Source of the DNA: a virus
Length of the DNA stretch: 64,000 nucleotides
Strand: one strand, 5' to 3'
Virus record (IMG/VR): IMGVR_UViG_3300025030_000076
Location: 16,306 to 80,305 of that record
In this document: positions 4,298-63,883 of the stretch, piece by piece
Layout: every line of letters starts with the position of its first letter
Position numbering within the stretch: position 1 is the first letter of the stretch
The notes under the pieces: generated by a model
What the model was told of the DNA's origin: nothing
The model's input: only the letters and a program-made list of their open reading frames with translations
The model's database searches: none
Made by a program: the position numbers and the translations under genes

Positions 4298-5947
4298 TTA
4301 TGCAAATAGATTTACGCCCGTTGCAGAACCGAGTCTTGCTTCCAATTCCGCTACTCGTGTTTGCAAGTTGGCGATAACTGATAGAACCGTGTTGCCCTCA
4401 TCCTGGGTAACGAACCCATAAGGCGCAACATTGGTCAAGTTCTGGATTGCGTAATCCGGCGTCGGGGCTGTGAACGTGATGGTCGTCAGTTGTGTAGTGA
4501 GTGCCGCACCGCGCACAACCGTGGTCCCGCCGTAAAATGCCAGCCGCGCCGCCGTCCCGCTGGCTTCTATCTCCATCCCCAAGCGCGCCGCCGTGTCGTA
4601 GGCTGAGAGAGACAGTTTGGCTTTGCGTGTGGCGTTGGTTGCATCAATCCATGAGGTTGAGATAATTCCTTGAGGCTGGGAAGTGTTGTTGGTGGCTGTC
4701 TCTGCATACCATGACAGCCCAACACCAAACCCTGCCGAACCACCTGTTGATGCCGTTGAAACAATTGCCTGTATTCGTTCAACTTCTAGTACCGCGTTTG
4801 TCGTTGTGGTCGAATCGATAATATGCAATTTTGCAGAAGCAGAAGTACTACCAATCCCAACGCTCCCGGCAATTATCATACCGCTTGCTGGAGCAGCAGC
4901 AGATCGATAAGATGCATCCGAACCTATGGATACCCCTCCACCAATATATAACTGCGAACCTGGCTGAGTTGCAGAAATGCTTGAGTCGCCAATAACAACT
5001 TTTGAGCCGCCAGTTTTGCCAAGATTCAAAGCTCCATACGCTAAGTTGTCGCCCCTCACAACGTCCCATAATGGCGCTCCAGTTGAGATTACTAATCTGT
5101 TAAAATATCCAGTGGACAATCCCAAATAATCAACATCTCCAAACCATAACTGCTTATTAGCTAGGGCGTTATATCCCAATGCCACAACACAACCAGTCCC
5201 GGTGTCCACACCCCCAATAGACATACCTGTGAAAATAAATCCGTCCGTCGTTGCTTTTTGTGTGAGCGTAAGACTGGTTGTTGGTACGCCATTGATACCA
5301 ACTCTTGCGTTTGTAGTGTCCACAATAAAGACATTATCTTTTACCCCATCCTGCTCCGCTAGCAAGGCCAAAGTAGAATTAACATTTATTTTTTGAATGG
5401 CGGTAAACACATTCGCCGTCGCCAGCAGCGCCGCCGTCCCTGTCGCCGGAACAGTCAGCGTGAAGCCTCCCAGCGCAACCGTTCCCCCGCCTGTGATGGT
5501 TGTATTCGATGCGTTGGTTATCGTGCCTGTGTTCGCGACACCAGTCCCGCCGTTGGCTGCCGAGAGGGGCAGGGTAAGCGCGGCCTGTCCGCCAATCGTA
5601 GCCAGAACCGCCGTCCCGTTTGCATCGTCCAAGATCGTGCGTGCGAAGGCAGACAGCCCCGTTTCTGCCCACGTATCCAGCGCCGTTGTATAAAGCATCT
5701 TGTCGGCGGCTGTGCCGAGCAGGGCGATGCTGGTCAGGGTTGCGTCAAGCGGCTGTCTGTTGGCGACCTTGTAATCCAACGACGCCGTGACCGCCGAGCT
5801 ATCTACCCCGACCTTCGCTTCAAGCGCCTCCACCGCGTCGTTGATGCTGGCGTGCTGGGTCGAGTGTAGGACGGCGGGCGTAGAGAGATTGTCCGCCGGG
5901 GTCGGGTTGGTAAAGTCATCGAGTGTTGTTGGGAATGTGGTCGGCAT
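4298..5947 (-). CDS. Fibre- or spike-like virion protein
   Basis: The 549-residue protein has a conserved N-terminal 60 residues, which the product of 57629-59422 shares almost unchanged. A long Gly/Ala/Thr/Val-rich beta-type body follows, and then a C-terminal coiled coil (LQTRVAELEARL). A conserved anchor with a variable body is typical of receptor-binding or decoration fibres. It lies immediately downstream of the portal with stop-start contact at 5947/5948. No chaperone or enzymatic domain was seen. Confidence 0.6.
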   Translation of the reverse strand: MPTTFPTTLDDFTNPTPADNLSTPAVLHSTQHASINDAVEALEAKVGVDSSAVTASLDYKVANRQPLDATLTSIALLGTAADKMLYTTALDTWAETGLSAFARTILDDANGTAVLATIGGQAALTLPLSAANGGTGVANTGTITNASNTTITGGGTVALGGFTLTVPATGTAALLATANVFTAIQKINVNSTLALLAEQDGVKDNVFIVDTTNARVGINGVPTTSLTLTQKATTDGFIFTGMSIGGVDTGTGCVVALGYNALANKQLWFGDVDYLGLSTGYFNRLVISTGAPLWDVVRGDNLAYGALNLGKTGGSKVVIGDSSISATQPGSQLYIGGGVSIGSDASYRSAAAPASGMIIAGSVGIGSTSASAKLHIIDSTTTTNAVLEVERIQAIVSTASTGGSAGFGVGLSWYAETATNNTSQPQGIISTSWIDATNATRKAKLSLSAYDTAARLGMEIEASGTAARLAFYGGTTVVRGAALTTQLTTITFTAPTPDYAIQNLTNVAPYGFVTQDEGNTVLSVIANLQTRVAELEARLGSATGVNLFA

Positions 5948-7924: not shown

Positions 7925-7933
7925 TTGTCCTCT

Positions 7934-9178
7934 TTAGCTAACCAGCCATGTATCGATCATGTCGCCCTCGTGCGCGTACCTGCCAGCGGCTATCAGATGG
8001 TCGTTCTTCTCGACCGGCTTACGTATTGCGTTGCCGTTAGCATCTTCCTGCCAGTGAAAAGTAGAAATCTCGTTCTTTGCGTTGACGCATTTCGCATCAA
8101 TGATGATCTCTTGCTGTTGCAGCCATTGGATACCGAATAATACGCTATCCTTGCCCTTGACCGCCGCAAGCGCCGAAACGCCATACTGCTGTAATTCGGC
8201 GATGGATTTCGGCTCGGCGCTATCACAGACTACGTAATCCGAGCCGATCCTGTTCTTTACTTCCACGGCCAGCAGGTCATTTGTAAGCCCGCGCTCGTAC
8301 AACTCATCGAAGATATAAATGCGTTTGTGCTTCGCGTCATAGTGAGACACCCACAGGGCGGCGGGGTCTGCTGAGAAGCCGAAATCCAGGCCGTTGCGGT
8401 GGTTGGTGAATTGCGCCTGCATCCCGGACAAATCCTCTACCCGCCAGTTGGTGAAGATGACATAGCCGAGAATGCCCCAGTTGCCTTCTGAATATACGTC
8501 AAAATAATACTTATCCTTCTCGTTTTCCAAGCCCCTAACATCTTCCCTGGTAAGAAACCTATTGTCTCGGTATGTAGTTTTTAGAATGTATAAATCGGGC
8601 GACTTATATTCTTTCTGGTCGTCAGTCCACCCAATCATTGAGAAGTAATCCGCATAGATAAAATGTGATTGTAGAATTGGATTAAATGACAGCATCAGCC
8701 TCTTAGGTGTTTTCTCGCTCCCCCCGCGCTGACGCTTCAAAAGTTGTTTGATGATTGACGAACGTTCTATTTCTGTTGCCTCTTCAATGCGAACATCAGT
8801 GAATACACCTTTAGCCGGGGTCAGGCTTTTTAGCTTCTCAACATCATCTAAACCTGCAAATATTATCTGGTATCCGTTTACACAAGTCACTGTCCCGTCT
8901 GTTTTATTTATAGAGAACAAATCAGACAAACCCCAATCCCTAATAACTTTTGTTATCTCTTGCACAACTGAGCCGCGAAGCGTACGCGCCACCTGCCTGC
9001 AAACAAGGAAATTACGTCCGCCCTTCATAATGTCCCTGATGTCACGTTGCGCCAAAAAAACAGACTTTCCAGACGACGCACCGCCATAGTAAATTTGTAT
9101 TCGCGCCATTTCGTTTAAACACGGAATATAGGCATCATTAAACACGGCGGGGTCTATATCTACATTAATCATTGTCAT
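7934..9178 (-). CDS. terL: Terminase large subunit
   Basis: The 414-residue packaging motor has a Walker A motif GGASSGKS (32-39), a Walker B region ending in paired glutamates (125-136), a coupling motif around SFNP (164-167) and the nuclease domain starting at LDFGFSADPA with Asp265. It is of the Terminase_3/PBSX type. The homologue at 61930-63171 differs at only a few positions. ATG 9178 gives MTMINV; the second copy begins MEHKV, so the exact start is less certain than the body. Confidence 0.93.
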   Translation of the reverse strand: MTMINVDIDPAVFNDAYIPCLNEMARIQIYYGGASSGKSVFLAQRDIRDIMKGGRNFLVCRQVARTLRGSVVQEITKVIRDWGLSDLFSINKTDGTVTCVNGYQIIFAGLDDVEKLKSLTPAKGVFTDVRIEEATEIERSSIIKQLLKRQRGGSEKTPKRLMLSFNPILQSHFIYADYFSMIGWTDDQKEYKSPDLYILKTTYRDNRFLTREDVRGLENEKDKYYFDVYSEGNWGILGYVIFTNWRVEDLSGMQAQFTNHRNGLDFGFSADPAALWVSHYDAKHKRIYIFDELYERGLTNDLLAVEVKNRIGSDYVVCDSAEPKSIAELQQYGVSALAAVKGKDSVLFGIQWLQQQEIIIDAKCVNAKNEISTFHWQEDANGNAIRKPVEKNDHLIAAGRYAHEGDMIDTWLVS

Positions 9179-9179
9179 T

Positions 9180-9800
9180 CTATTTCTTTTTCCACGTCCA
9201 ATGTTTACCTAATGTATTTGTATTGCCTTTCATTGCATTAGCTATGCCTTGTTTATTCTTGTCTGAAAGCGGCTTGCCTTTTAGTGCGGCTGAAATCTTT
9301 TGTTTCGCCTTCGCTGTGTGCGCTCCTTTAGAAACACCAGTATGAGATACAGAGATTTTCCGCTTAGTTTCTTCGGATGGTCGCCATCCATTTGCCTTGT
9401 GAGACATGGACATTTTCTGCCGAGTTTCAATTGTGTGCCTCTCACCAAGGTTGGCAATAGCAAGTTTCAGCCTAGTCGCCAATGAGCGCGGCGTTCCAGC
9501 CTTGCTGCCAGCCGTCACACAGACGTTGTATTCAGGATTACAGGAATCTAGATAATCCTGTTCGTAAATCAAAAGGTCGGTGCGTAAACAGGCAACAAGT
9601 ATTACAAAATCGAAGTTTTTAGCCCCGTATTTATTCCAAGCGCGTTGCAGATGTATGCTGTGATGTTTCCCCGCGTTAAGTAATGAGATGTGTTTTTTCC
9701 ATCGGCTTTCAATATTCCACGACGAGCCTACGTATCTTTTGCCGTCTGCTTTGTTTACAATGGCATAAACCCCACTTGTCTTGTGTGTTAAAATGTTCAT
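9180..9800 (-). CDS. GIY-YIG homing endonuclease with NUMOD-type repeats
   Basis: The N-terminus has the GIY-YIG signature (GVYAIV near residue 9, then KRYVGSSWNIESRW) with catalytic Arg and a following conserved Glu. The C-terminus has repeated short basic helices (ETRQKMSMSH, ETKRKISVSH, KAKQKISAAL), the NUMOD3-type DNA-binding repeats of free-standing homing endonucleases. I start it at ATG 9800, behind AGGAG in a hairpin loop. It interrupts the terS-terL junction. The second module has a different GIY-YIG gene at exactly the same place. Confidence 0.85.
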   Translation of the reverse strand: MNILTHKTSGVYAIVNKADGKRYVGSSWNIESRWKKHISLLNAGKHHSIHLQRAWNKYGAKNFDFVILVACLRTDLLIYEQDYLDSCNPEYNVCVTAGSKAGTPRSLATRLKLAIANLGERHTIETRQKMSMSHKANGWRPSEETKRKISVSHTGVSKGAHTAKAKQKISAALKGKPLSDKNKQGIANAMKGNTNTLGKHWTWKKK

Positions 9801-9878
9801 ATCAGCACTCCTATGCTGGTCACGCCCTCGGATGTCCAACCATCGCGGGGGCATTTCCTGAATATTTGTTCTATTATA
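9801..9878 (-). promoter_or_regulatory. Promoter and structured leader of the GIY-YIG gene
   Basis: On the minus strand a TATAAT (9873-9878) is followed by a leader with a G/C-rich hairpin (about 9823-9850) and a small hairpin (stem 9804-9807 with 9814-9817). The small hairpin displays the ribosome-binding site AGGAG in its loop just before ATG 9800. The same layout precedes the endonuclease genes at 32251, 40856 and 63802. No good -35 box is seen. Confidence 0.5.
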
Positions 9879-9888
9879 GCACGTGACG

Positions 9889-10275
9889 TTATTCATCAAT
9901 ACCTTTGACTGTGACAGTAATTGTCAGCGGCGCGCCAAGTGGCCCGCCGATTTCAACATTATCCCCATACCCGCGCTTTTTGCCGCGCTTGGACAGTAGC
10001 CATTTGGCGTCGCCAGCATCAACCGGCTTCTGCGTCTGCTCCTGTTCCTTTACGGCATAGGCGATATTCTTGACCAGCACGCTTTCTGCCATGTCAAGCG
10101 GTAACTCGCACTCCGCATCATAGGCGGCCTGTGCTTCGGGGTATACAGGAATAGCATCCTTAGCCGTAGACCATGAGACATCCAGCCGCGCCGCGATAGT
10201 CGAGACAATGCCGCCGCTGCCTGCGATTGCCTTGAGTAGTTGCGCCTTGCGTATCTTGGTCGGATGCTTTGCCAT
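9889..10275 (-). CDS. terS: Terminase small subunit
   Basis: The 128-residue protein has an N-terminal helix-turn-helix (about 18-42, IAARLDVSWSTAKDAI) and a C-terminal basic segment, the usual plan of small terminases that recognise the packaging site. It lies directly upstream of terL apart from the inserted endonuclease. The 3' end of its homologue is at 63894 to the right edge. Confidence 0.75.
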   Translation of the reverse strand: MAKHPTKIRKAQLLKAIAGSGGIVSTIAARLDVSWSTAKDAIPVYPEAQAAYDAECELPLDMAESVLVKNIAYAVKEQEQTQKPVDAGDAKWLLSKRGKKRGYGDNVEIGGPLGAPLTITVTVKGIDE

Positions 10276-24915: not shown

Positions 24916-26028
24916 TTATAAAAGTTTTGGGCTTTCCGGTTCTGCGCTCACGGCTTCCATCTGGAAATCATGGGCAAGCACAATCCTGGCGGCTTCGACT
25001 TTCTCGTTCAGGATGGATTTTTCAATCACATAATCGAGTTGCTCTTTGGTCAACTCGCCCATAAACTTCTCTTTGCCGCCTTTGACTTTGACGACAACCT
25101 GCTTCGCTTCGTCGTAGGTCATGGGGTGCAAGTCGGTTTCGGGTGGAAAATCTTTATCCAAATCGCCAGTGATGTCCTCCGGCTCTGCCTGTGCAGACAG
25201 GTCTTGCGTCACCGGAATATCCTCTGCCTCCACGTCAATCGGCTCATCTGCCCTCAATGCTTCCCTGAGTTGCGGAGAGTGTTCGATGCCGCTCTTATCC
25301 GCCCAATTCAAAAGCGCACGCAGGACGGTTTTCATTTCCATCGTGGGGCGCTTCTTTGGGTCTTTCCAGTTTGGGTTTTTTATCTTCCCGTCGTCGTCTA
25401 AATAGTCTTTGACATAGTTCATGGCGTGTTCTTCGATCTCGACGCAGGACATATAGACGGACTTCTCAAACCCCTTCGTGGTCTTGTAGTAGCCAAGCCA
25501 GCCTATTACTTTCTTGCCCTGGTCGCGTCGCACAGTGACATTGCGGGAATATGCGGCGTTATAGGATTGCGGCTGACCCATAAATCCATTTTCCTCCTGT
25601 ACCGCGTGCAGTCCGGTCAATGGGTTTTCAAACACCTGCTGGCCTTCATAGATCGGCGCAACGTTGATGATCCAGTACTTGTTCGTTCGCATAGCGAGGA
25701 AGTAAACCCCAAAATAATGAGGCTGAAATTGCGCTTCCTTGATCCACTTCGGGGTCTGCCCTTTCGGGGCAATGTTTCGATTGCGAGGGATAAGCCATGC
25801 CTGTTTTACGGCGGGGTCACAGGATAAACCGAGAGACGCGGCGCGCAAGGCGGCTCTATGAATGCTCTGCGGCGTGCATTGCATCAAGTCCTCTGTGGAG
25901 GACGCGGCAATGATTACGCTTTGCACATAAGGCGCGGCATCTTTTCCAAGCAGGTTGACAAAATCCTGGAAGTTGTCAGGCTGGCGGAGGTATTCGGTAA
26001 CTGGATTTTTTACGATTGCATTTTGCAT
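24916..26028 (-). CDS. recT: RecT-family single-strand annealing protein
   Basis: The 370-residue protein has the RecT core (SIHRAALRAASLGLSCDPAVKQAWLIPRN ... GYYKTTKGFEKSVYMSCVEIEEHA). It anneals complementary single strands in phage recombination. The C-terminal third is acidic and variable; inside it an 18-bp palindrome (25183-25200) encodes LSAQAE. ATG 26028 has AGGAA upstream. No adjacent exonuclease was recognised; the DEDD exonuclease at 14616 may serve. Confidence 0.85.
   Translation of the reverse strand: MQNAIVKNPVTEYLRQPDNFQDFVNLLGKDAAPYVQSVIIAASSTEDLMQCTPQSIHRAALRAASLGLSCDPAVKQAWLIPRNRNIAPKGQTPKWIKEAQFQPHYFGVYFLAMRTNKYWIINVAPIYEGQQVFENPLTGLHAVQEENGFMGQPQSYNAAYSRNVTVRRDQGKKVIGWLGYYKTTKGFEKSVYMSCVEIEEHAMNYVKDYLDDDGKIKNPNWKDPKKRPTMEMKTVLRALLNWADKSGIEHSPQLREALRADEPIDVEAEDIPVTQDLSAQAEPEDITGDLDKDFPPETDLHPMTYDEAKQVVVKVKGGKEKFMGELTKEQLDYVIEKSILNEKVEAARIVLAHDFQMEAVSAEPESPKLL
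25183..25200. repeat. 18-bp palindromic element in frame, copy 3
   Basis: CTCTGCCTGTGCAGACAG followed by GTC differs from the copy at 3181 at only two end positions. It is read in the same frame (DLSAQA), inside the disordered acidic tail of RecT. No empty-site homologue is available in this window. Confidence 0.65.
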
Positions 26029-26053
26029 GATGTTTATTCCTTTCTTTCTGTGA

Positions 26054-26272
26054 TTAGGGTTCAATTTCAGGCACACTTGCGAACCACTCCGCCGATCCAA
26101 AGACGGGAGGCGGTTGCGGCGCTCGTGCGGCGGCTCGCTCGGCTCGCTCCCGACTCAATGTGCGGGATAGGTGCGCCCATTCGCTCAGGTTCTCGTCGCA
26201 GTCGTCCGCTTCAAATGCGGCATGTGCGTAGAGTTCCAGGAATATCAACTCGAAATAATCGTTGTCGGTCAT
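26054..26272 (-). CDS. Small protein, unknown
   Basis: The 72-residue protein has an acidic N-terminal half and an Arg/Ala-rich centre. It is coupled to the upstream gene by a 4-bp overlap. No domain is recognised. Confidence 0.45.
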   Translation of the reverse strand: MTDNDYFELIFLELYAHAAFEADDCDENLSEWAHLSRTLSRERAERAAARAPQPPPVFGSAEWFASVPEIEP

Positions 26273-27068: not shown

Positions 27069-27098
27069 TTGACAAATTCAATGTTCCTGCTTTATAAT
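27069..27098 (+). promoter_or_regulatory. Consensus sigma70 promoter of the cassette array
   Basis: TTGACA (27069-27074) and TATAAT (27093-27098) both match consensus, with an 18-bp spacer. It directs transcription into 27124-32146, in the orientation of every cassette. Confidence 0.85.
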
Positions 27099-27123
27099 CC
27101 TGGTATAGAAAAGGAAAACGCAC

Positions 27124-27390
27124 ATGAACAAATTCGAAGAATTGCATGGTAGTCAAACACAAACTATCGCGGCGCTGGAAGCGGAGAATGCGAAACTGAG
27201 GGAGTTTGTCAGTAAATTTTCTGACAACTTCAGCGATTGTGATTACTGTAATGGCAAAGGCGTTTTTTCGGATGATATGATTGAGTGCCGCGTCTGTAAC
27301 GGGACCGGAAAACACATAACCTCAATTGGTGTGATGTTCGTGGAATTACCTGAAGAAGCCCGCGCCCTTCTCGCCCAGGAGCCAGCATGA
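27124..27390 (+). CDS. DnaJ-type zinc-finger protein
   Basis: The 88-residue protein has a coiled N-terminal segment and two CxxCxGxG-type motifs (CDYCNGKGVF, CRVCNGTGKH) as in the DnaJ central zinc domain. It is the first gene behind the array promoter with AAAGGA before ATG. An operator-like repeat (27206-27227) lies in its coding sequence. It has no attC, so it precedes the cassettes. Confidence 0.65.
   Translation: MNKFEELHGSQTQTIAALEAENAKLREFVSKFSDNFSDCDYCNGKGVFSDDMIECRVCNGTGKHITSIGVMFVELPEEARALLAQEPA
27206..27227. promoter_or_regulatory. Operator-like repeat, site 2
   Basis: TTGTCAG (27206-27212) and CTGACAA (27221-27227) flank TAAATTTT. It resembles site 1 at 27008-27029 over most positions. 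A protein bound here would roadblock elongation from the array promoter. Confidence 0.5.
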
Positions 27391-27545
27391 CCCGCCTCAC
27401 CTTCGACCCTCCCTCCGAATCCCCGGACGGCGATCCCGTCTGCCGGATATGCGATCACGAGATGGAGTACAACCCACTCACCCGCGAGTGGGAATGCGTC
27501 CAGGATCACGACGCGCTGGAAAACGAAGATGAAATACCGACCTGA
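27387..27545 (+). CDS. Small protein with CRICD zinc knuckle (52 aa)
   Basis: ATG 27387 overlaps the preceding TGA (ATGA). The acidic 52-residue protein has CRICDHE and a later Cys. It overlaps the next gene by 17 bp. Confidence 0.5.
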   Translation: MTRLTFDPPSESPDGDPVCRICDHEMEYNPLTREWECVQDHDALENEDEIPT

Positions 27546-27723
27546 TCTCACGGACTACCTGCCTTGCATCGAAGCACTTGCAGATAAATTGAATGAGGAT
27601 GCGATCTACAAAATGAGCAGGACTGATGCGGTAAAAATCGCCCTGGAAAAGGCACTTGAGAAAGTCGTGCCTGATGTTGTAATAAACAAAAAGCGGAAAA
27701 GGTACATCAAGCTGGATTTTTGA
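27529..27723 (+). CDS. Small protein, unknown
   Basis: The 64-residue helical protein has a basic end (NKKRKRYIKLDF). It is coupled to the upstream gene by overlap and is the last gene before the first cassette boundary. Confidence 0.5.
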   Translation: MKYRPDLTDYLPCIEALADKLNEDAIYKMSRTDAVKIALEKALEKVVPDVVINKKRKRYIKLDF

Positions 27724-27760
27724 AAATGAGTGCGACGATGTACACTCCGCTCATACCCTA

Positions 27761-27767
27761 GTTAGAC
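27761..27767 (+). other. First recombination core GTTAGAC (attI-like or attC remnant)
   Basis: GTTAGAC is exactly complementary to the R'' box GTCTAAC (28092) of the first cassette's attC, as required if the first cassette begins at TTAGAC. No full attC lies upstream, so it occupies the position of an attI site or is what remains of a lost cassette. Small inverted repeats (ATGAG/CTCAT, TACCCT/AGGGTA) surround it. Confidence 0.5.
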
Positions 27768-27809
27768 CCCTGTCTTGCTGGCAGGGTATCACCCAAAAGG
27801 AGAAAAAAC

Positions 27810-28097
27810 ATGAGCGCAGCAAGTGATTTGATTGAACGAATGGAACGCGAAACAGGTCTGCGGATTGATTCTGATGACCCAAACAATATGGCAATGGCTG
27901 GTTTATTCGGCGCAGTTGCCCGCATGATGGGCAAGTCAAGCCACGATGAGCGCGATGATGTTGTGGCTGGTCTCTTGGTCATGCACCAAATGACCCCAGA
28001 GTATCGCAATGAACAAGAGAGTAAACAAATGATTGCTTCTCTTTTGTCCAGTGGTCTCTCCCCTGATGATATTCGCAATATGTGGGGCGGGGTCTAA
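27810..28097 (+). CDS. Cassette 1: helical protein, unknown
   Basis: The 95-residue helical protein starts behind AAAGGAG and ends with a TAA that is part of the R'' box of its attC, the usual arrangement in integron cassettes. The cassette spans 27762-28176. No family is recognised. Confidence 0.6.
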   Translation: MSAASDLIERMERETGLRIDSDDPNNMAMAGLFGAVARMMGKSSHDERDDVVAGLLVMHQMTPEYRNEQESKQMIASLLSSGLSPDDIRNMWGGV

Positions 28098-28182
28098 CAA
28101 ACGCTTGCAGTGGACTTGGCGGTACGGTGTGTCTTTTTGCGAAGGTTACGAACCGCCAAGCCACTAAAGCGAACCGTTCGGC
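28092..28182 (+). other. attC 1
   Basis: R'' GTCTAAC (28092-28098) to R' GTTCGGC (28176-28182), 91 bp. The arms AGTGG-a-CTTGGCGGT and ACCGCCAAG-CCACT are fully complementary apart from one extrahelical A, the hallmark of a folded attC bottom strand. Confidence 0.85.
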
Positions 28183-28214
28183 GGCTACCTTGCCAGCCGA
28201 GAAGTGAGAAATAA

Positions 28215-28448
28215 ATGGGTATTTATGAATGTAGTTGTTTGCCAGCAAATCTAAGCCCAAGCGGTGAATTTGAGTTGTGCGAAGTTTGCCGCCTGGAAGA
28301 AGAAAACGAAGATGATAACGCCGCCGAACAAAGCCTGCACCTGACGCTTGGGAGTCTGCGCCTAAAAAAGCAGTTTCCAAGCCGAAAGTTTTATCCACAT
28401 CTCAAACCTTATCCAAGCCCACCAAGCGCAGGTAAAGCACACCGTTAG
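28215..28448 (+). CDS. Cassette 2: small protein ending inside attC
   Basis: The 77-residue protein has CSC and CEVC in the first half, then an acidic stretch. From residue 37 on it is encoded by the attC itself; the stop lies in the R' box. The cassette spans 28177-28444. The attC-encoded tail is basic and Pro-rich. Confidence 0.5.
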   Translation: MGIYECSCLPANLSPSGEFELCEVCRLEEENEDDNAAEQSLHLTLGSLRLKKQFPSRKFYPHLKPYPSPPSAGKAHR

Positions 28449-28450
28449 GT
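28323..28450 (+). other. attC 2
   Basis: R'' GCCGAAC (28323-28329), exactly complementary to the cassette's own start TTCGGC (28177), to R' GTTAGGT (28444-28450). Arms ACCTG-a-CGCTTGG and CCAAGCG-CAGGT (28422-28433) pair. The variable loop is long. Confidence 0.8.
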
Positions 28451-28455
28451 GGCTT

Positions 28456-29082
28456 ATGGCTAAATTTGATACGAAGTTTGCACACGCAAGAGAAGATTGG
28501 GAAACTCCCGATAGTATCTTCAAACCGTTGGAGGCTGAATTTGACATCGTGATTGATGTTTGTGCTTCCGAGCATAACAAGAAGTGTTCACTAAGATATA
28601 CCATTGAGGAGAATGGTCTTTTGCAAGATTGGTCACAGTGGCATGCGTGTTGGATGAACCCGCCATTTGGTCGGCAATCTGTGTGGGTCAAAAAGGCTTA
28701 CACGGAAAGCCTGCGAGGAGCAACGGTTGTCTGTCTACTTCCTGCCCGCACTAATACTAATTGGTGGCACGACTTTTGCATGAAAGGCACGGTTCGCTTT
28801 TTGCGTGGTCGTCCCATCTTTGTCGGAGCCAAACATGGTTTACCCCAGCCGTTGGCTGCTGTGATGTTGAGCGCCAGTGTGCTCGCGGCCGCATTGGTCA
28901 GGGTCAGAATGTTTGTGGCGGGTGGGATGATTGCCGCCGCCGTGATGTGCATTGTCATATTCCAGCCACCTAACACATGCGTGCAGTCGGACGGGGCTTA
29001 CTGTGCGTGCAAAGAAGGGTTATCCTTCACGGTGGCGAATGGCACAAATTATTGTCTTGCGTGCGGTCAGCCCCGCCGCTAA
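28456..29082 (+). CDS. Cassette 3: Dam-type DNA N6-adenine methyltransferase
   Basis: The first 140 residues match the phage Dam family (WETPDSIFKPLEAEFDIVIDVCA, catalytic NPPFG near 69, VVCLLPARTNTNWW, FLRGRPIFVG). The remaining 65 residues are unusual: a hydrophobic stretch, then a Cys-rich segment read through the attC to a TAA at 29080. In the +2 frame the coding sequence would instead stop exactly in the R'' box, so a small indel may have shifted the normal end. The cassette spans 28445-29091. Confidence 0.75.
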   Translation: MAKFDTKFAHAREDWETPDSIFKPLEAEFDIVIDVCASEHNKKCSLRYTIEENGLLQDWSQWHACWMNPPFGRQSVWVKKAYTESLRGATVVCLLPARTNTNWWHDFCMKGTVRFLRGRPIFVGAKHGLPQPLAAVMLSASVLAAALVRVRMFVAGGMIAAAVMCIVIFQPPNTCVQSDGAYCACKEGLSFTVANGTNYCLACGQPRR

Positions 29083-29097
29083 CGCAAGCCGTTAGCT
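28968..29097 (+). other. attC 3
   Basis: R'' ACCTAAC (28968-28974) exactly complements the cassette start TTAGGT. R' is GTTAGCT (29091-29097). The inner arms CGG-a-CGGGGC and GCCCCG-CCG pair. Confidence 0.85.
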
Positions 29098-29120
29098 GGC
29101 ACTTTGCAAAGGATGTAATT

Positions 29121-29285
29121 ATGAGTATTGTCAGACCGCACGGAAGCAGTACCAAGATTTTTCGTGAACTACGTAAAACAAGATGTATTTTTTGTGGGTT
29201 CGGCGTGAAACTTGTTGTCAGGAAAACTGGCAACAAAGTCGAGAAAGTATGTCCGAAGTGTGGCAGGAAGTTTCAGAGGTCATGA
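29121..29285 (+). CDS. Cassette 4: zinc-ribbon protein (54 aa)
   Basis: The basic protein has CIFCG and CPKCGRKF, a zinc ribbon. ATG 29121 is chosen; a longer frame upstream would start inside the preceding attC. It ends five bases before its attC. The cassette spans 29092-29373. Confidence 0.55.
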   Translation: MSIVRPHGSSTKIFRELRKTRCIFCGFGVKLVVRKTGNKVEKVCPKCGRKFQRS

Positions 29286-29289
29286 AGCG

Positions 29290-29379
29290 GGCTAACAAAT
29301 GCGTGCAGGCGACATGGGTGGGCGGCGGTCAAAATCGGACAGTCATAGCCACCCATGCGCCTAACGCAAGCCGTTCGGC
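29290..29379 (+). other. attC 4
   Basis: R'' GGCTAAC (29290-29296) to R' GTTCGGC (29373-29379), 90 bp. Arms GGCG-a-CATGGGTGG and CCACCCATG-CGCC pair perfectly around the extrahelical A. Confidence 0.85.
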
Positions 29380-29408
29380 GGCTACCTTATAGCCAGAAGG
29401 AGCAAACA

Positions 29409-29678
29409 GTGAAAATTTTAGGTGATACTATCGTGTGTAAGATCATGCACTCTCAATACTGTTTTTCGTGTGGTCGCCATTTGGCAACTGCCAAAACAAC
29501 CAAAGCCACCGAAAAGATTGTTTTGAAAAATGGCGGCTCGATCCGTAAAGATGGTTTTTATCGTGCGTACTGCGCGTCCCATGTGCCGCCCAACACGGCG
29601 TGCAGCGGATTGGCGGATGAATTATTACCCGGTATTGCGTTGCCCGAATGGATTTTGAGAAATCCCGCCAACCGCTAA
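29409..29678 (+). CDS. Cassette 5: Cys-rich protein ending inside attC
   Basis: GTG 29409 with AGAAGGAG upstream opens an 89-residue frame with CFSCGRH and a distal CASH, a metal-binding pattern. The last 31 residues are encoded by the attC and the stop TAA lies in its L' box. The cassette spans 29374-29687. Confidence 0.5.
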   Translation: MKILGDTIVCKIMHSQYCFSCGRHLATAKTTKATEKIVLKNGGSIRKDGFYRAYCASHVPPNTACSGLADELLPGIALPEWILRNPANR

Positions 29679-29693
29679 CGCAAACCGTTAGCC
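29588..29693 (+). other. attC 5
   Basis: R'' GCCCAAC (29588-29594) to R' GTTAGCC (29687-29693). Arms AGCGG-a-TTGGCGG and CCGCCAA-CCGCT pair. Confidence 0.8.
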
Positions 29694-29717
29694 CGCTCTT
29701 TCGGGCAAGGAAAATCA

Positions 29718-29831
29718 ATGAACAAGAAACGAGAACTAATATTTATCACAGTATGGCTGGCTGGAGTCATAGGTTTGGTTTTGGTTGTATTACAGCTTCG
29801 CCAAATTTGTCCGTGTTGGTGGCTACCATGA
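29718..29831 (+). CDS. Cassette 6: single-pass membrane protein (37 aa)
   Basis: ATG 29718 with AAGGAAAA upstream. The peptide is one membrane helix (LIFITVWLAGVIGLVLVVLQL) with a basic start and a Cys/Trp-rich end (CPCWWLP). It stops five bases before its attC. The cassette spans 29688-29954. Confidence 0.5.
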   Translation: MNKKRELIFITVWLAGVIGLVLVVLQLRQICPCWWLP

Positions 29832-29835
29832 AGCG

Positions 29836-29960
29836 GTCTAACAATGCGTGCAGTTGACGGCGGGAAGGCTCCCGGCTGTACATGCAACGCCTACCAATTA
29901 GAGAACTTCGGTTGTAAATGTGGTGCGGCAACCCGCCGCAACTAACGCAAACCGTTGGTG
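29836..29960 (+). other. attC 6
   Basis: R'' GTCTAAC (29836-29842) to a degenerate R' GTTGGTG (29954-29960). Arms GTTG-a-CGGCGGG and CCCGCCG-CAAC pair. The loop itself reads as a short Cys-rich peptide in one frame. Confidence 0.75.
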
Positions 29961-29985
29961 CGGACTTAGTTAGGAAAGGTAAAAT

Positions 29986-30219
29986 ATGTATCTAAAACTC
30001 ATGAATGATTACGAGGAAGAATTGAGACTAGCAGGAAGAAAAATTAAGGTAAACGATCATTTTGCAAGGTTTGATTTTGCAAGTTGGCTAGATAGACAAG
30101 CCGCCCAACAACCGCTTGCACAGCCGACTGGTTGCTGGGCGTGTGGCGATAAAGGTATCATCCGCGCCGATGGTATCGCTATCAACTGTTCGGTTTGCAA
30201 TCCCGCAACCAGCCGCTAA
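29986..30219 (+). CDS. Cassette 7: zinc-knuckle protein whose knuckles are attC-encoded
   Basis: The 77-residue protein has a charged helical N-terminal half. Its C-terminal half (from about residue 40) is read through the attC and contains CWACGDKG and CSVC. The cassette spans 29955-30227. Confidence 0.55.
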   Translation: MYLKLMNDYEEELRLAGRKIKVNDHFARFDFASWLDRQAAQQPLAQPTGCWACGDKGIIRADGIAINCSVCNPATSR

Positions 30220-30233
30220 CGCAAGCCTTGGGC
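30103..30233 (+). other. attC 7
   Basis: R'' GCCCAAC (30103-30109); R' is degenerate (CTTGGGC, 30227-30233). The inner arms CTGGTTGC and GCAACCAG pair. Confidence 0.7.
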
Positions 30234-30253
30234 GGAAGCCCTGCAAGGTAAAC

Positions 30254-30454
30254 GTGAAAGAAAGTTTTTGTGAATGCAATCACCCCCAAAGGTTTCATGG
30301 TACGCACTTGTCTGATGATACTTATGATGGTGCTTGCGTGCGTCAAACCTGCAAATGCCGTAAATTCCGCCCAACAAAGCGTGGGCTTTGGGCGTGGGCT
30401 AATTATCGTATTGGTGAATTTGTGTGGTCTTGCCGAGCGTGGTTGGATGTATAA
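30254..30454 (+). CDS. Cassette 8: CECNH-type zinc protein
   Basis: GTG 30254 opens a 66-residue frame with SFCECNHPQRFHG and CVRQTCKCRKF, a Cys/His pattern shared with cassette 12 (CDCNH). The C-terminal part is basic and Trp-rich and crosses the R'' box. The cassette spans 30228-30479. Confidence 0.5.
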   Translation: MKESFCECNHPQRFHGTHLSDDTYDGACVRQTCKCRKFRPTKRGLWAWANYRIGEFVWSCRAWLDV

Positions 30455-30485
30455 ATCGCCAGCCAGTAATGCAAGACCATTGGAC
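30369..30485 (+). other. attC 8 (degenerate)
   Basis: R'' GCCCAAC (30369-30375) exactly complements the cassette start TTGGGC. The distal end ATTGGAC (30479-30485) and the arms are poorly matched, so this site is probably inactive. Confidence 0.5.
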
Positions 30486-30506
30486 AGTGCGCTGTAAGGA
30501 GTAGAA

Positions 30507-30770
30507 ATGAACGTTGATTTAGAAAAAGAGATCGACACTGTTGCGGAATTCTGCTGTGACAATCCTAACTATAATGAGTTGCGCGAAGAAATTGCAACTC
30601 TTGTCCGTAAATATCATCAAATTGCTGGAGACTTGGCGTTGGAGGTTTGGAGATTGAGCCGCCCAACTACGGGTGCAGTTGACTCGGCGGAGATTCCCGA
30701 AGTTTTCAACCTGCAACCAAAAGTGATTGCAAAAGGTCGTATTGTGTTCGATGACCCGCCGAGCAACTAA
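30507..30770 (+). CDS. Cassette 9: helical protein, unknown
   Basis: The 87-residue protein has a helical N-terminal two thirds with AAGGAG before ATG. The last 35 residues come from the attC and the TAA lies next to the R' box. The cassette spans 30480-30773. Confidence 0.5.
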   Translation: MNVDLEKEIDTVAEFCCDNPNYNELREEIATLVRKYHQIAGDLALEVWRLSRPTTGAVDSAEIPEVFNLQPKVIAKGRIVFDDPPSN

Positions 30771-30779
30771 TCGTTAGCT
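30661..30779 (+). other. attC 9
   Basis: R'' GCCCAAC (30661-30667) to R' GTTAGCT (30773-30779), 119 bp. Arms AGTTG-a-CTCGGCGG and CCGCCGAG-CAACT are perfectly complementary. Confidence 0.85.
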
Positions 30780-30803
30780 GGCTCTTCAAGAAAGAAGGTA
30801 ATC

Positions 30804-31016
30804 ATGGAAAAATGTGATCGTTGTGGTAAAAAAGTAAAGGTGTATCCAACTCATTATTCGGCATGGAATGAACTTTGCCTGCCGTGTATCAAACTCATGG
30901 GGCTTGGTTTGCCTGAAATGCAACCAGCTAACAAAAGCGTGGAGCCGACTTGTCCAAACTGCGGCGAACCATTGCATTATCACCCTACCGCCGACTGCAA
31001 AGTAGCCCGCTCTTGA
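30804..31016 (+). CDS. Cassette 10: double zinc-knuckle protein
   Basis: The 70-residue protein has CDRCGKK and CLPC in the cassette body and CPNCGEP in the attC-encoded tail. ATG has AAGAAGG upstream. The cassette spans 30774 to about 31001. Confidence 0.55.
   Translation: MEKCDRCGKKVKVYPTHYSAWNELCLPCIKLMGLGLPEMQPANKSVEPTCPNCGEPLHYHPTADCKVARS
30926..31007 (+). other. attC 10 (degenerate right end)
   Basis: R'' AGCTAAC (30926-30932) exactly complements the cassette start TTAGCT. The right end reads AGTAGCC (31001-31007) instead of a GTT core, so recombination there is doubtful. Confidence 0.55.
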
Positions 31017-31027
31017 AAGGATAGGTT

Positions 31028-31240
31028 ATGAACTATACAAAAGCGAATCAGGCTCTTGCTAATGAGTTCGGCGCAGGTCAGGTCGAAGTCCATAAGGCAA
31101 AGAAGGGTGATCCGTGGGAATACACACTCTGGTTCTTGGATGATGATCCTGCGCCTGGCGTAATCGAGAAGGCTAAGAAAATCGTTGGTCGCTTCGAGCC
31201 GTCTCGGTGGTTCGATAAGTTGAAATTCCATTCCGAGTAG
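31028..31240 (+). CDS. Cassette 11: small mixed alpha/beta protein
   Basis: The 70-residue protein (KANQALANEFGAGQVEVHKAKKGDPWEYTLWFLDDD...) has a start behind GAAAGGATAGG. It stops before the R'' box. No cysteine motif is present; the function is unknown. The cassette spans about 31002-31364. Confidence 0.55.
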   Translation: MNYTKANQALANEFGAGQVEVHKAKKGDPWEYTLWFLDDDPAPGVIEKAKKIVGRFEPSRWFDKLKFHSE

Positions 31241-31242
31241 CG

Positions 31243-31370
31243 GGCTAACACGGGCTTGCACAGGGACGGCTTGCCAGCCGAACATCGCGTGCAGTGGACT
31301 TTGGCTACTGTGTGGCAAATTTTTTGTGGCTCTATATCGCCGCCAAAGCCACTAACGCAAACCGTTGGGC
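31243..31370 (+). other. attC 11, fused remnant plus complete site
   Basis: GGCTAAC (31243-31249) complements the start of cassette 11 but breaks off by 31276. It runs into a second complete site with R'' GCCGAAC (31277-31283) and R' GTTGGGC (31364-31370), whose arms AGTGG-a-CTTTGGC and GCCAAAG-CCACT pair perfectly. A deletion probably fused two cassettes here. Confidence 0.75.
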
Positions 31371-31397
31371 GGACTAGCTCAACAGAAAGATTTTGAA

Positions 31398-31622
31398 ATG
31401 AATTGTCAATATTGCAAACATTCGATAGACGAGCATGATAGTGGGGGATGTCATCGTAAAATTGACGGCGGTATCTGCGATTGTAATCATTCCCCAAACT
31501 ATATCGCCGCCCAACAAATGCGTGCAGGCGACTTGGCTACTGGTTGCCCGTTCTGCGGTGTCTCCGCCGAAGATATTGCATTGCTCAATGAATCGCTTGC
31601 GCGTGAAACGCCAAGCGTCTAA
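31398..31622 (+). CDS. Cassette 12: Cys/His-rich protein with attC-encoded CPFCG knuckle
   Basis: The 74-residue protein has CQYCKHS, CHRK and CDCNH in the cassette body (pattern like cassette 8). CPFCG is encoded in the attC loop; the TAA is in the attC right arm. ATG 31398 is used; the frame is open further upstream into the preceding attC. The cassette spans 31365-31632. Confidence 0.55.
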   Translation: MNCQYCKHSIDEHDSGGCHRKIDGGICDCNHSPNYIAAQQMRAGDLATGCPFCGVSAEDIALLNESLARETPSV

Positions 31623-31638
31623 CCCAAGTCCGTTGGGC
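31509..31638 (+). other. attC 12
   Basis: R'' GCCCAAC (31509-31515) to R' GTTGGGC (31632-31638), fully complementary outer boxes. Arms AGGCG-a-CTTGGC and GCCAAG-CGTCT pair. Confidence 0.85.
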
Positions 31639-31667
31639 GGACTACCCGACTTTGAAAGGAAAATAAA

Positions 31668-31856
31668 ATGTCAGACGAGAAAAAACAAGTAGTAATTCAC
31701 AGGGATGGCTCTGTGACCGAGCAAAGAAGTAATGATCTTCCAATTGTTTTGCTGCCATCAAAGCAAACCGCCCAACACGGCGTGGAGCCGACTGTTTGTC
31801 CTAAGTGCGGTCACGCTGTTGGTGGTCATAATGCACTTTGTCCAATTGGTAATTAG
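31668..31856 (+). CDS. Cassette 13: small protein with attC-encoded zinc knuckle
   Basis: The 62-residue protein has a charged N-terminal half with GAAAGG before ATG. The C-terminal half, read through the attC, contains CPKCGHAVGGHNALC, a compact Cys/His site. The cassette spans 31633-31875. Confidence 0.55.
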   Translation: MSDEKKQVVIHRDGSVTEQRSNDLPIVLLPSKQTAQHGVEPTVCPKCGHAVGGHNALCPIGN

Positions 31857-31881
31857 TGGCGGCTCACGCGCCCCGTTGGGC
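31770..31881 (+). other. attC 13
   Basis: R'' GCCCAAC (31770-31776) to R' GTTGGGC (31875-31881), 112 bp. Arms GAGCCG and CGGCTC pair with a slightly larger internal bulge than in other sites. Confidence 0.75.
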
Positions 31882-31908
31882 GGACGCTCCGCCAGGAAGT
31901 GAGGAAGC

Positions 31909-32130
31909 ATGAAAATTTGTGATGCTTGCGGAAAAGCATGTTATAGTTTTGCAACTTACAAAATATGTAGGCATATTGTTTGTAGCCGTCACGAATATCC
32001 AGAAAGTTGCCCTGTGTGCGCCGCCCAACACGGCGTGCAGCGGACGACTGATGACGTCCGCGAAAATGTTGGTGTTTCTGAAAATGGTGAACTGCATTCA
32101 GTAATGCGTGGAACAACCCGCCGCCGCTAA
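31909..32130 (+). CDS. Cassette 14: Cys-rich protein
   Basis: The 73-residue protein has CDACGKAC, CRHIVC and CPVC in the cassette body, a possible double zinc site. The last third is encoded by the attC. The start follows AGGAAGTGAGGAAGC. The cassette spans 31876-32140. Confidence 0.55.
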   Translation: MKICDACGKACYSFATYKICRHIVCSRHEYPESCPVCAAQHGVQRTTDDVRENVGVSENGELHSVMRGTTRRR

Positions 32131-32146
32131 CGCAAGTCCGTTGGGC
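32023..32146 (+). other. attC 14
   Basis: R'' GCCCAAC (32023-32029) to R' GTTGGGC (32140-32146), 124 bp. Arms AGCGG-a-CG and CG-CCGCT pair. It is the last site; the array terminator begins seven bases later. Confidence 0.8.
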
Positions 32147-32152
32147 TCCAAT

Positions 32153-32175
32153 AGCCCCCACTTAGGGGGCTTTGT
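32153..32175 (+). terminator. Intrinsic terminator at the end of the cassette array
   Basis: AGCCCCC (32153-32159), loop ACTTA, GGGGGCT (32165-32171) and a T-rich tail. It closes the transcription unit that starts at 27069. Confidence 0.8.
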
Positions 32176-32177
32176 GT

Positions 32178-32247
32178 TATAATCAGAACGAATGTGCTCC
32201 CGCGTGATGGAACACCGGGAGCGTGATCTCAGCACAACGGAGGTGCT
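32178..32247 (+). promoter_or_regulatory. Promoter and structured leader of the HNH gene
   Basis: TATAAT (32178-32183) is followed by a hairpin GCTCCCG (32196-32202) with CGGGAGC (32216-32222), and then AGCAC/GTGCT (32231-32247) with the ribosome-binding site AACGGAG in its loop. The same two hairpins precede the GIY-YIG gene at 63802, a different endonuclease family. Confidence 0.6.
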
Positions 32248-32250: not shown

Positions 32251-32739
32251 ATGGAAGAGATTTTAACACGCTTTTGTCCAAGGTGCGGGGTAGAGCATAA
32301 ATTATCGGAATTCAAAAGAGAACCCAAGCCAGGTAGATACCCAGGGTCATGCGTTTACAGCGGACGAGATGCGCGTATTTCTAAACCACCTAAAACAAAA
32401 ACAACAAAACCGCCTCCCGTTTATCTAGACGCCAGTTATCTTCCAAAAAAGAGGGTGGTAGGGTTATTTCCGCGTATTCAGACAATATTTTCCCATTCTT
32501 ACCGCGCTCGCGCCAACGGCAACAATGGGAAAATCATATATCAGGAATGGGAGGATCTGAAAGAAAAATATAACAATACCTGTCTGTGTTGTGGCAGACG
32601 ATCTCCTGAAGTCGAAATAACTCTTGACCACGTACTCCCCTTGAGTATGGGGGGTAGGAATACTATTGAGAACGCCCAGCCGCTTTGTCTTTCTTGTAAC
32701 TGCAAGAAAAGCACGAAATACATTGATTATCGCCCCTAA
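32251..32739 (+). CDS. HNH endonuclease
   Basis: The 162-residue protein has an N-terminal CPRCG zinc knuckle and a C-terminal HNH domain: CLCCGRRSPEVEITLDHVLPLSMGGRNTIENAQPLCLSCN, with the His of DH, Asn of the middle motif and four cysteines. It is probably a free-standing homing endonuclease between the cassette array and the tail genes. It has its own leader and lies on the plus strand. Confidence 0.85.
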   Translation: MEEILTRFCPRCGVEHKLSEFKREPKPGRYPGSCVYSGRDARISKPPKTKTTKPPPVYLDASYLPKKRVVGLFPRIQTIFSHSYRARANGNNGKIIYQEWEDLKEKYNNTCLCCGRRSPEVEITLDHVLPLSMGGRNTIENAQPLCLSCNCKKSTKYIDYRP

Positions 32740-33520: not shown

Positions 33521-33742
33521 CTATGACCAGTTGATATGATCGCCGCTGTCATAGACGATAAAATCATCATTATCCCAAAGCAACTCAGCGCCCAGCACCG
33601 CCACTTCCGCCGGTCTGCCGTTGGACCAGCCCCCGGCCACGATGCGGGATACCGGCTCAAAGGTGAGCGGCGCGGAGAGATTGGTAATCATCTCGCCTAT
33701 GGCGTGGAAGCCGATCCCGTCAAAGCCGATCATTTCAGCCAC
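33521..33742 (-). CDS. Small tail-region protein, unknown
   Basis: The 73-residue protein overlaps the upstream gene by 13 bp. It is Gly- and Ile-rich with an acidic end. The context suggests a minor tail component. Confidence 0.45.
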   Translation of the reverse strand: MAEMIGFDGIGFHAIGEMITNLSAPLTFEPVSRIVAGGWSNGRPAEVAVLGAELLWDNDDFIVYDSGDHINWS

Positions 33743-34452
33743 GCCTCTATCTGCACGTCATTGATAATCGTGTTCGCGTTCGCGCCCAAGTGGTTGTCGA
33801 ATTGAAAACTAACCGCCTGCGTTGTTGTAACGTTGAACAGGAACGGGCCAAGAAAAATTGTATCTGCCAGGATGCCCATCGCGGTCGTGTATCCTTTGCG
33901 GGTTCCCTGCCCGTATTGGTTGCACTCGACATGGACATAACCATTGAAAGCCGACGCCGCGTCGAATGTGACGTGCATGGAGATACTCGCCCAGCATGGA
34001 TAATTAATCGTGATTACGTCGCTTGCCAGCGTTGCTAGGCCGTGTTCGTCTGTCCACTCGGTATCTACATCCAGCAGCGCATTATCCACTGTATCATTGA
34101 CCACCAATGTCGATCCGTAATAGGCTGCAAAGACCGGCAAGTCCTTTCTGCTAGGACAAATGTAAACTTCGGATAATCCCGTCAATACAATCTTTGCCCC
34201 GGCATTTGTTGATGATTCTACCGTTGTGCGTGCCACTGTATTTGTTGCAGTGTTATATGCCCCCAAACTTATCTCGGAGTGTGTCGGGCGGTTGGATGTT
34301 GTCGAGTAGGTGATGATCCCAAAGCGCACGACTTCGCCGTTTGTGATCCCAGCCAGTTCCCAGGTATTGCAGCCGGGAACCGCGCCGGTAAGGACACAGT
34401 CGCTTGTGCCTGTGGTAGTTGAGTATTCTCTAGCTAAGTTTCTATATGGCAT
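33730..34452 (-). CDS. Tail-tip protein with C-terminal jelly-roll-like domain
   Basis: The 240-residue protein has an N-terminal beta region and a C-terminal beta-sandwich-like part (YPCWASISMHVTFDAASAFNGYVHVECNQ). It is similar in style to C1q-like or carbohydrate-binding fibre heads. It is probably involved in host attachment. Confidence 0.5.
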   Translation of the reverse strand: MPYRNLAREYSTTTGTSDCVLTGAVPGCNTWELAGITNGEVVRFGIITYSTTSNRPTHSEISLGAYNTATNTVARTTVESSTNAGAKIVLTGLSEVYICPSRKDLPVFAAYYGSTLVVNDTVDNALLDVDTEWTDEHGLATLASDVITINYPCWASISMHVTFDAASAFNGYVHVECNQYGQGTRKGYTTAMGILADTIFLGPFLFNVTTTQAVSFQFDNHLGANANTIINDVQIEAWLK

Positions 34453-63802: not shown

Positions 63803-63883
63803 TGCACCTCCGTTGTGCAGTGGTCGCGCTCCCGGATGCTTCAACATCGCGGGAGCAGCGCTTAGATTATTTGTTCTATTATA
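63803..63883 (-). promoter_or_regulatory. Promoter and structured leader of the second GIY-YIG gene
   Basis: On the minus strand TATAAT (63878-63883) is followed by the hairpin GCTCCCG/CGGGAGC (63850-63856 with 63828-63834). A terminal hairpin TGCAC/GTGCA (63803-63819) then shows AACGGAG in its loop. These parts match the leader of the HNH gene at 32251 almost base for base. Confidence 0.6.

Follow-up and report, generated by a model that had tools for sequence, protein, structure and literature searches.

A phage-carried integron cassette array behind a conserved attI-like site, probably exchanged by an integrase supplied in trans

Integrons have been studied as bacterial devices, in which the integrase gene intI usually diverges from the cassettes, and clusters of attC sites lacking integron integrases (CALINs) have often been read as remnants. 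We analysed a 64,000-nucleotide stretch of virus DNA (the window; positions 16306-80305 of the 80,305-base IMG/VR record IMGVR_UViG_3300025030_000076) that carries 14 integron-type gene cassettes on the + strand (27762-32140), with boundaries set from their R' and R'' boxes and with an attC-like site at the end of each. The accessible text of Qi et al. (2023; PMC9892861) reports 3 complete integrons, one In0 and 17 CALINs in 10,705 NCBI phage genomes, and 5 of 6 tested phage attC sites were functional with IntI1 in the assay given there; thus, integron parts in phages are already known. The array in the window resembles complete integrons in its attC anatomy (R'', L'' with extrahelical bases, L' and R'), its cassette unit and an attI-like R box (TAGTTRGRC), but no intI was found in its record. 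We consider it probable that the array is an exchangeable block of cassettes carried by the phage and served by an integrase in trans.

The cassette array and its phage setting

The initial annotation, made from the letters alone, had proposed an integron-type array of 14 cassettes, and independent evidence bears this out. We built a covariance model (R1) from 20 attC sites of 88-107 nt in other phage contigs, taken from a pool of 39 sites of 84-128 nt picked by their core motif; it excludes the window sites and is distinct from the published IntegronFinder and HattCI models. R1 found 12 of the 14 attC sites, all on the + strand between 28092 and 32146 (E 1.1e-18 to 1.3e-6), and nothing outside the array at E <= 1 in the ~80,400 bases of the record. 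Thus, the outcome that the annotation had named as fatal, a covariance model that finds no attC, did not materialize. The model is narrow, with no match in the class 1 integron stretches L176 and L177.

In the 20-site alignment, 92.5% of cells pair in the written-out attC structure (96.7% in the inner helix), and the covariation score of 0.475 exceeds that of shuffles (0.147; reached in 0 of 500) and of slid partners (0.05-0.12). Changes on both sides occur in 13 pairs, which is a weaker measure (shuffled mean 10.4; at least 13 in 10 of the 500 shuffles). Pairing is lower in the outer R''-R' helix (83.6%), which is to be expected since R' comes from the next cassette. We also compared each R'' box with the start of its own cassette and found 111 matches in 154 positions, relative to a permuted mean of 93.8 (p = 0.00017) and to 87-95 matches when boxes were shifted to neighbouring cassettes. 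Since many cassettes share the start GTTGGGCGG, this permutation test is conservative.

At individual cassettes, the exact complementarity of R'' claimed for cassettes 1, 2, 3, 8, 10, 12, 13 and 14 is correct over the six TTRRRY positions. The claim of near-complements does not hold for cassette 11 (3 of 11 positions), and cassette 7 also fits its own R'' poorly (5 of 11). Cassette 11 would fit had its start lost one base; at 31240-31300 it also shows two successive R'' starts (31243 and 31277) and looks like a fused attC pair. Bottom-strand folds of the 14 sites, which the annotation had offered as a check, gave z scores from -3.45 to +0.74, with site 10 no better than shuffles. A simple arm-complementarity rule gave 7 matches in the array and no separation from 60 shuffles (mean 4.6; maximum 10), because the R' of each site belongs to the next cassette. 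The proof is therefore provided by model R1, the covariation and the permutation test. The array is confirmed as real and as lying within a phage genome.

Packaging and tail genes stand in the same record (terminase, tape measure, RecT, endonuclease VII), and the array lies, as annotated, between recombination and tail genes, with RecT-like and replication genes on one side and an endonuclease VII/HNH gene followed by tail genes on the other. Record positions 2-26300 match 54808-80305 (window 38503-64000) at 69-97% identity over the matching pieces; the record therefore amounts to about 1.5 turns of a ~54-kb genome and comprises two diverged strains, and the array falls in its single-copy middle. 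The two strains were either joined by assembly or stand in tandem. Both array junctions are spanned in other records: L039 (sample 3300025012) matches the window from 22.0 to 35.5 kb at 99.99%, L078 (sample 3300025326) covers the left junction (17.5-31.2 kb at 100%) and L260 (sample 3300025174) the right one (31.9-37.3 kb at 99.4%), while L258, which belongs to the L078 contig, combines the 12 model attC sites of the window array with the tail-side gene. An assembly break at 27.1 or 32.2 kb, which the annotation had raised near 27100 or 32200, is thereby excluded.

Neither PF00589 (tyrosine recombinase) nor TIGR02249 (IntI) has a match in the whole record, in agreement with the claim that an integrase is missing, so that the intI of a complete integron was not found. 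An array of two or more attC sites that has no integron integrase in its vicinity is by definition a CALIN, and the present array is of this kind. Its description as an array-only CALIN stands as regards the integrase but is incomplete, since a conserved leader gene and, behind it, a conserved attI-like site form the head of the array.

A conserved leader and attI-like site at the array head

The 64-aa leader gene and the 30-nt attI-like site directly precede cassette 1 (Table 1). Relatives of the leader were found, by protein search alone, in 10 viral loci, which represent 9 distinct phages with the window phage included. In 8 of these 9 phages the stop codon of the leader is closely followed by a site resembling ATGTACATTCCGC-N8-TAGTT, which was not found in the remaining one (G032). 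Across 8 leader contigs (28 pairs), pairwise identity averages 0.79 for 27 nt within the site and 0.65 for the last 150 nt of the leader, compared to 0.26 upstream of the leader and 0.29 over 40 nt beginning 17 nt past the crossover, inside the first cassette. The codons of 7 leaders (21 pairs) gave pN/pS values of 0.18-0.42, which indicates that the leader is a protein under selection, and pS values of 0.72-0.99 in 20 pairs and 0.44 in one. Since synonymous divergence of the leader is high while the site is kept, the site has outlasted strong neutral change. Conserved both by position and by sequence, the head of the array thus looks attI-like.

The leader phages are otherwise distant from one another: the terminase of G005 is 28% identical to the window terminase, and the best terminase families differ (phrog_3717 in the window, phrog_2 in G015, phrog_5909 in G027). 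The window terminase is nearest to those of Marinitoga viruses (54% identity), which does not name a host. No Pfam family matches the leader protein above cut-off, and PHROG yields nothing convincing; 2 of 5 leader proteins show a weak PF07704 match (best E 0.0098, below cut-off), and the predicted structure (pLDDT 75, middling) has no significant fold match in PDB.

A pattern scan placed the attI-like site in 22 viral loci, and 14 of these sites precede cassettes. The other 8 were set aside as chance-like, since by eye they are coding sequence without an attC core behind the site. When whole contigs were examined with a slightly widened pattern, 13 of the 14 sites had an R1 attC 169-1032 nt downstream; the exception is G028, where the attC behind the site is, by eye, degenerate. 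Two sites with arrays stand in one contig in both G026 and G027 (L139-L143). By motif search, the site also occurs without the leader in G026, G028, G029 and at one of the two G027 sites, each time before cassettes. A shorter pattern returned 4 viral loci, namely three known sites and L269, which was rejected because it lies in coding sequence with no attC. In 84,980 bacterial and archaeal genomes, which were scanned with the attI pattern only, we found only 3 matches, all archaeal and apparently due to chance; by eye their frame reads NVHPAK, which we take to be a MutL-like motif.

Differing arrays in related phages and integrases in other phages

Using the tail-side flank gene as a query, we identified related phages L073/L011 (92% aa identity), L261 (92%) and L263 (89%; a 60-kb contig). 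Arrays stand at the same place as that of the window both in L073/L011, which has the same eight R1 sites in two samples (E <= 0.01), and in L263 (7 R1 sites at E <= 0.001); the short contig L261 has no model attC. L263 still has the leader's first codons along with the right half of the attI-like site, whereas L073/L011 has only the right part of the site and a counterpart of the 52-aa gene that adjoins the array (93.7% nucleotide identity over 95 nt in L073). No cassette gene is common to the three arrays (window record G000, L073/L011 and L263): their longest nucleotide match, 116 nt, is a single attC, and two protein-level matches (36 and 23 residues) fall in attC-coded ends. Thus, related phages do carry different cassettes at the same place, as the annotation had anticipated.

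Similar attC sites are found behind different genes. The window's attC 14 is 91% alike to an L073/L011 attC behind a different gene, and a survey of 127 sites from 20 contigs plus Virus Rctr41k (with 8 G001 sites dropped as G002 copies and the window's 14 set by hand) yielded 50 attC pairs at least 75% alike over 80% of their length, some within one contig, of which 48 have no similar gene body. A cassette gene family is also common to each of three phage pairs behind different attC sites (G008/G032, G012/Rctr41k and G002/G011), with nucleotide matches of 100-122 nt plus protein-level matches. As an observation that bears on the origin of cassettes, the attC sites at G008 11311 and G015 3743 are 95% alike over 105 nt behind unrelated genes.

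Integron integrases occur in other phages with this attC family. TIGR02249 has a match at E <= 0.01 in 5 of 35 searched records, with G023 alone above the curated cut-off. All 14 control genomes also match, none above the cut-off, and the match in G030 (E 0.0015) therefore counts as that of any tyrosine recombinase. Terminase and portal genes 2-6 kb downstream mark G023 as a phage; it has IntI, a single cassette and, at the stop codon of IntI, an attI-like GTT. G015, also a phage (major head protein, portal, terminase), has an IntI-like gene (257 bits, with a cut-off of 265), a leader with an in-frame stop, a window-type attI-like site downstream of the IntI gene, and cassettes. In this contig (L134; 752-908 and 4801-4910), the start of the IntI gene directly follows an attC, and so does that of another tyrosine recombinase gene, as if both stood in cassette position. 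Two phage integrons have decayed integrases: G017 (L152, 230-437) has an apparently internally deleted IntI, an attI-like GTT and ten R1 sites, and G034 (L153) has only a 3' remnant of IntI, with an attI-like GTT and cassettes. Such decay is a possible route to integrase-less arrays.

A wider scan gave at least 524 viral stretches with IntI relatives at tblastn E <= 0.001 among 600 candidates, although not all of these need be IntI. The best 80 loci include 9 in which R1 attC sites stand downstream of IntI on its own strand and 3 in which they stand on the opposite strand. The intI gene is co-directional with the cassettes in nine phage integrons (L178-L183, L185, L240, L246), and in these the first GTT lies at the IntI stop codon or up to ~30 nt behind it. 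IntI goes with the same attC family in G023, G015, Rctr41k, L179-L183, L185, L240 and L246; of G023 and G015, only G023 passes the curated cut-off, and the Rctr41k IntI is 38% identical to that of G023. In a tree of 44 of the 80 listed loci (7 of these dropped for stops) plus 4 others, 10 of the 11 co-directional phage IntIs fall into two supported groups and G015 forms a long branch; the tree shows no single origin.

Integrase-less and IntI phages also come from the same samples. Sample 3300025030 has integrase-less G001 and IntI phage L179, and sample 3300009285 has G029 and G030 plus IntI phages G015 and L185. Sample 3300033067 likewise holds an IntI phage and an integrase-less platform, with no R1 site found beside that IntI. 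Absence of IntI counts for little in most comparison contigs, which are fragments, and for more in G000 (1.5 genomes) and G026 (60 kb).

The array is preceded by an operon that includes the leader gene (Table 1). The annotation had placed the array behind a phage promoter and before a terminator; consensus matches to both are present, but the totals in the region (9 promoter-like and 6 terminator-like) are not above those of shuffles (6.3 and 6.6). When 10 cassette proteins were scanned, one belonged to a firm family (Dam-type methyltransferase) and two showed zinc-ribbon similarities below cut-off. No Rfam family reaches its gathering score in the window. The stretch behind the array terminator (32195-32246) has a 54-nt inverted copy (83%) at 63804-63857, near the record end.

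Table 1. Coordinates (window positions) of the array and of neighbouring features
Feature	Position	Strand	Basis
attI-like site ATGTACACTCCGCTCATACCCTAGTTAGAC, 30 nt, array start	27738..27767	+	putative crossover at G^TT of 27761
Leader gene, 64 aa, directly upstream of attI-like site	27529..27723	+	relatives in viral loci
Cassette 1 (ORF 27810-28097)	27762..28176	+	box boundaries
attC 1	28092..28182	+	R1 66.7 bits
Cassette 2 (ORF 28215-28448)	28177..28444	+	box boundaries
attC 2	28323..28450	+	R1 53.7 bits
Cassette 3, Dam-family DNA adenine methyltransferase (ORF 28456-29082)	28445..29091	+	PF05869 E 9.1e-29
attC 3	28968..29097	+	R1 52.4 bits
Cassette 4 (ORF 29121-29285; zinc-ribbon similarity below cut-off)	29092..29373	+	box boundaries, profile search
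attC 4	29290..29379	+	R1 61.6 bits
Cassette 5 (ORF 29409-29678)	29374..29687	+	box boundaries
attC 5	29588..29693	+	R1 67.9 bits
Cassette 6 (short ORF 29718-29831)	29688..29954	+	box boundaries
attC 6	29836..29960	+	R1 64.5 bits
Cassette 7 (ORF 29986-30219)	29955..30227	+	box boundaries
attC 7	30103..30233	+	R1 30.0 bits
Cassette 8 (ORF 30254-30454)	30228..30479	+	box boundaries
attC 8, degenerate	30369..30485	+	box boundary; missed by R1
Cassette 9 (ORF 30507-30770)	30480..30773	+	box boundaries
attC 9	30661..30779	+	R1 29.9 bits
Cassette 10 (ORF 30804-31016; zinc-ribbon similarity below cut-off)	30774..31002	+	box boundaries, profile search
attC 10, degenerate	30926..31008	+	box boundary; missed by R1; fold no better than shuffles
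Cassette 11 (ORF 31028-31240)	31003..31364	+	box boundaries
attC 11	31277..31370	+	R1 69.1 bits; second R'' at 31243
Cassette 12 (ORF 31398-31622)	31365..31632	+	box boundaries
attC 12	31509..31638	+	R1 42.2 bits
Cassette 13 (ORF 31668-31856)	31633..31875	+	box boundaries
attC 13	31770..31881	+	R1 36.2 bits
Cassette 14 (ORF 31909-32130)	31876..32140	+	box boundaries
attC 14	32023..32146	+	R1 52.7 bits
Sigma-70-like promoter TTGACA-18-TATAAT, upstream of leader operon	27069..27098	+	12/12 hexamer matches, consensus match only
88-aa gene, operon start	27124..27390	+	ORF
52-aa gene MTRLTFDPPSE..	27387..27545	+	translation
Terminator-like hairpin behind array	32153..32171	+	consensus match only
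RecT-like single-strand annealing protein, flank	24919..26100	-	phrog_148 E 8.7e-38
Endonuclease VII / HNH endonuclease, flank	32251..32739	+	phrog_1035 E 3e-19
Tail-side flank gene, no PHROG family; query for related phages	33733..34452	-	89-100% aa identity in 7 loci

Weighing the readings and comparison with known systems

The cassettes with an attC family that recurs in many phages, the attI-like site with its leader, the lack of a detected integrase, the differing arrays and the IntI phages with the same attC family together point to cassette exchange with an integrase supplied in trans. On this reading, a co-resident IntI-bearing phage or a host integron would provide the integrase, which would act on attC sites folded as single strands and recombine them with one another and with the phage's attI-like site. 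Cassettes would thereby enter at the attI-like site, leave and be replaced without any need for an intI of the phage's own. Leader and cassettes may both be transcribed from the promoter that precedes the leader, and the cassettes may confer small accessory functions; the Dam-type methyltransferase, for instance, may shield phage DNA from restriction. Host integrases, which the annotation had in mind, are one option, and IntI phages with the same attC family, some of them from the same samples, could serve as helpers as well.

We also considered a more specific version, in which attI, leader and cassettes form one half of a split integron, a satellite-like platform that selection maintains in integrase-less phages and that depends on integrases from other phages, whose integrons have the same attC family and an intI co-directional with the cassettes. 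If so, cassettes would move from phage to phage in addition to passing through bacterial integrons. This version is possible but rather doubtful, and its odds are lowered by the presence of the attC family on a bacterial plasmid, since bacterial integrases may then serve too.

Several results weigh against cassette exchange with an integrase in trans. Two of the 14 attC sites (8 and 10) are degenerate and escaped R1, and close relatives of the G015 integrase, the sole one that stands beside this attI type, were not found in viral contigs. The 127-site survey found no whole cassette (gene plus attC) in two different phages, so the movement of single cassettes was not caught. Within one phage species no reshuffled array was found, since L039, L078 and L260 match the window at 99.4-100% where they overlap it, and the assembled contigs show neither a circular cassette nor recombination.

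Some of these points would be expected if the array were a relic of one ancestral integron uptake, changed since then only by phage homologous recombination (RecT-like annealing) between attC arms. The degenerate sites, the lack of a detected integrase in the record, a RecT-like gene with its end 1.4 kb away from the leader gene, the presence of this array in three records and the decayed IntI of G017 and G034 all suit such a history. However, the attI-like site and the paired attC arms have been kept despite far-diverged synonymous sites in the leader, R'' still matches the start of its own cassette, and the three arrays at one place have no gene in common; thus, we judge the relic unlikely. 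Somewhat more unlikely still, in our estimate, is that the 30-nt block, rather than being an attI, regulates the leader operon, and that cassettes were inserted next to it by chance or via a cryptic attC remnant. The leader is conserved and, given its weak PF07704 match below cut-off, may be a DNA-binding protein, and ATGTACAT is a palindrome, as found in operators. Against this, conservation drops behind the R box, at the start of cassette 1, and motif search also places the site without the leader (G026, G028, G029 and one G027 site), always before cassettes, even if the point is limited for G028 with only a degenerate attC there; moreover, in G015 the site lies downstream of the IntI gene.

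We give next to no credence to an artefact in which a bacterial cassette array was wrongly joined to phage DNA. The record is not a simple single genome, given its ~1.5 turns and two diverged strains, but the spanned junctions (both in L039 at 99.99%, left in L078 at 100%, right in L260 at 99.4%), the array and tail gene of L258, and the two related phages with arrays at the same place all speak against a false join. We therefore retain exchange of cassettes, with the integrase in trans, as the probable reading. The conserved attI-like site together with fully differing arrays suggests that integrase-less arrays may be working platforms served in trans, which provides both a testable route for cassette movement between bacteria and a set of natural phage attI, attC and IntI parts.

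Comparison with described systems places the array among several partial counterparts. Among 50,697 named phage records, the leader has no match and the window array matches Virus Rctr41k (GenBank KX853513.1) at attC sites, with 13 others matching only in the cassette 3 methyltransferase gene. Rctr41k has the same attC family (6 R1 matches behind its IntI gene); unlike the window record it has IntI, annotated only as 'integrase-like protein'. With IntI and six model attC sites, its stretch at 4680-10101 (L174) amounts to a complete phage integron, although its annotation lists only that protein and other genes, and the word integron is absent from the accessible main text of the paper that describes it (Gambelli et al. 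2016; PMC5099504). A plasmid search, made with the array DNA only, matched one plasmid record, pA of Kovacikia minuta CCNUW1 (L270, 4843-8690), which has four R1 attC sites (E <= 0.0005), while plasmid pB of this bacterium encodes an IntI 49% identical to that of phage G023. Plasmid pA differs in being a cyanobacterial plasmid with an unannotated record, in which the attI-like site was sought only by the pattern scan of prokaryote genomes. In Vibrio chromosomal integrons, near-identical VCR-type attC repeats stand behind unrelated genes; since VCRs behave likewise, we do not claim the pattern of like attC sites behind different genes as new, although, unlike VCRs, the alike sites described here are mostly in different phage contigs.

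The closest counterparts are the phage CALINs of Qi et al. (2023; PMC9892861), whose accessible text describes integrase-less attC clusters, methyltransferase cassettes and, in two phages, cassettes in one direction, all as seen here. In contrast, that text does not describe a conserved attI-like site and leader common to distant phages, or different cassettes at one place in related phages, and a search covering mainly the open literature brought up no description of this leader or of a conserved phage attI that lacks intI. An integrase-less array seated on a conserved attI-like site, whose pattern, apart from the chance-like archaeal matches, was seen only in viral contigs, thus appears from these comparisons to be new, alongside the phage integrons and CALINs already described.

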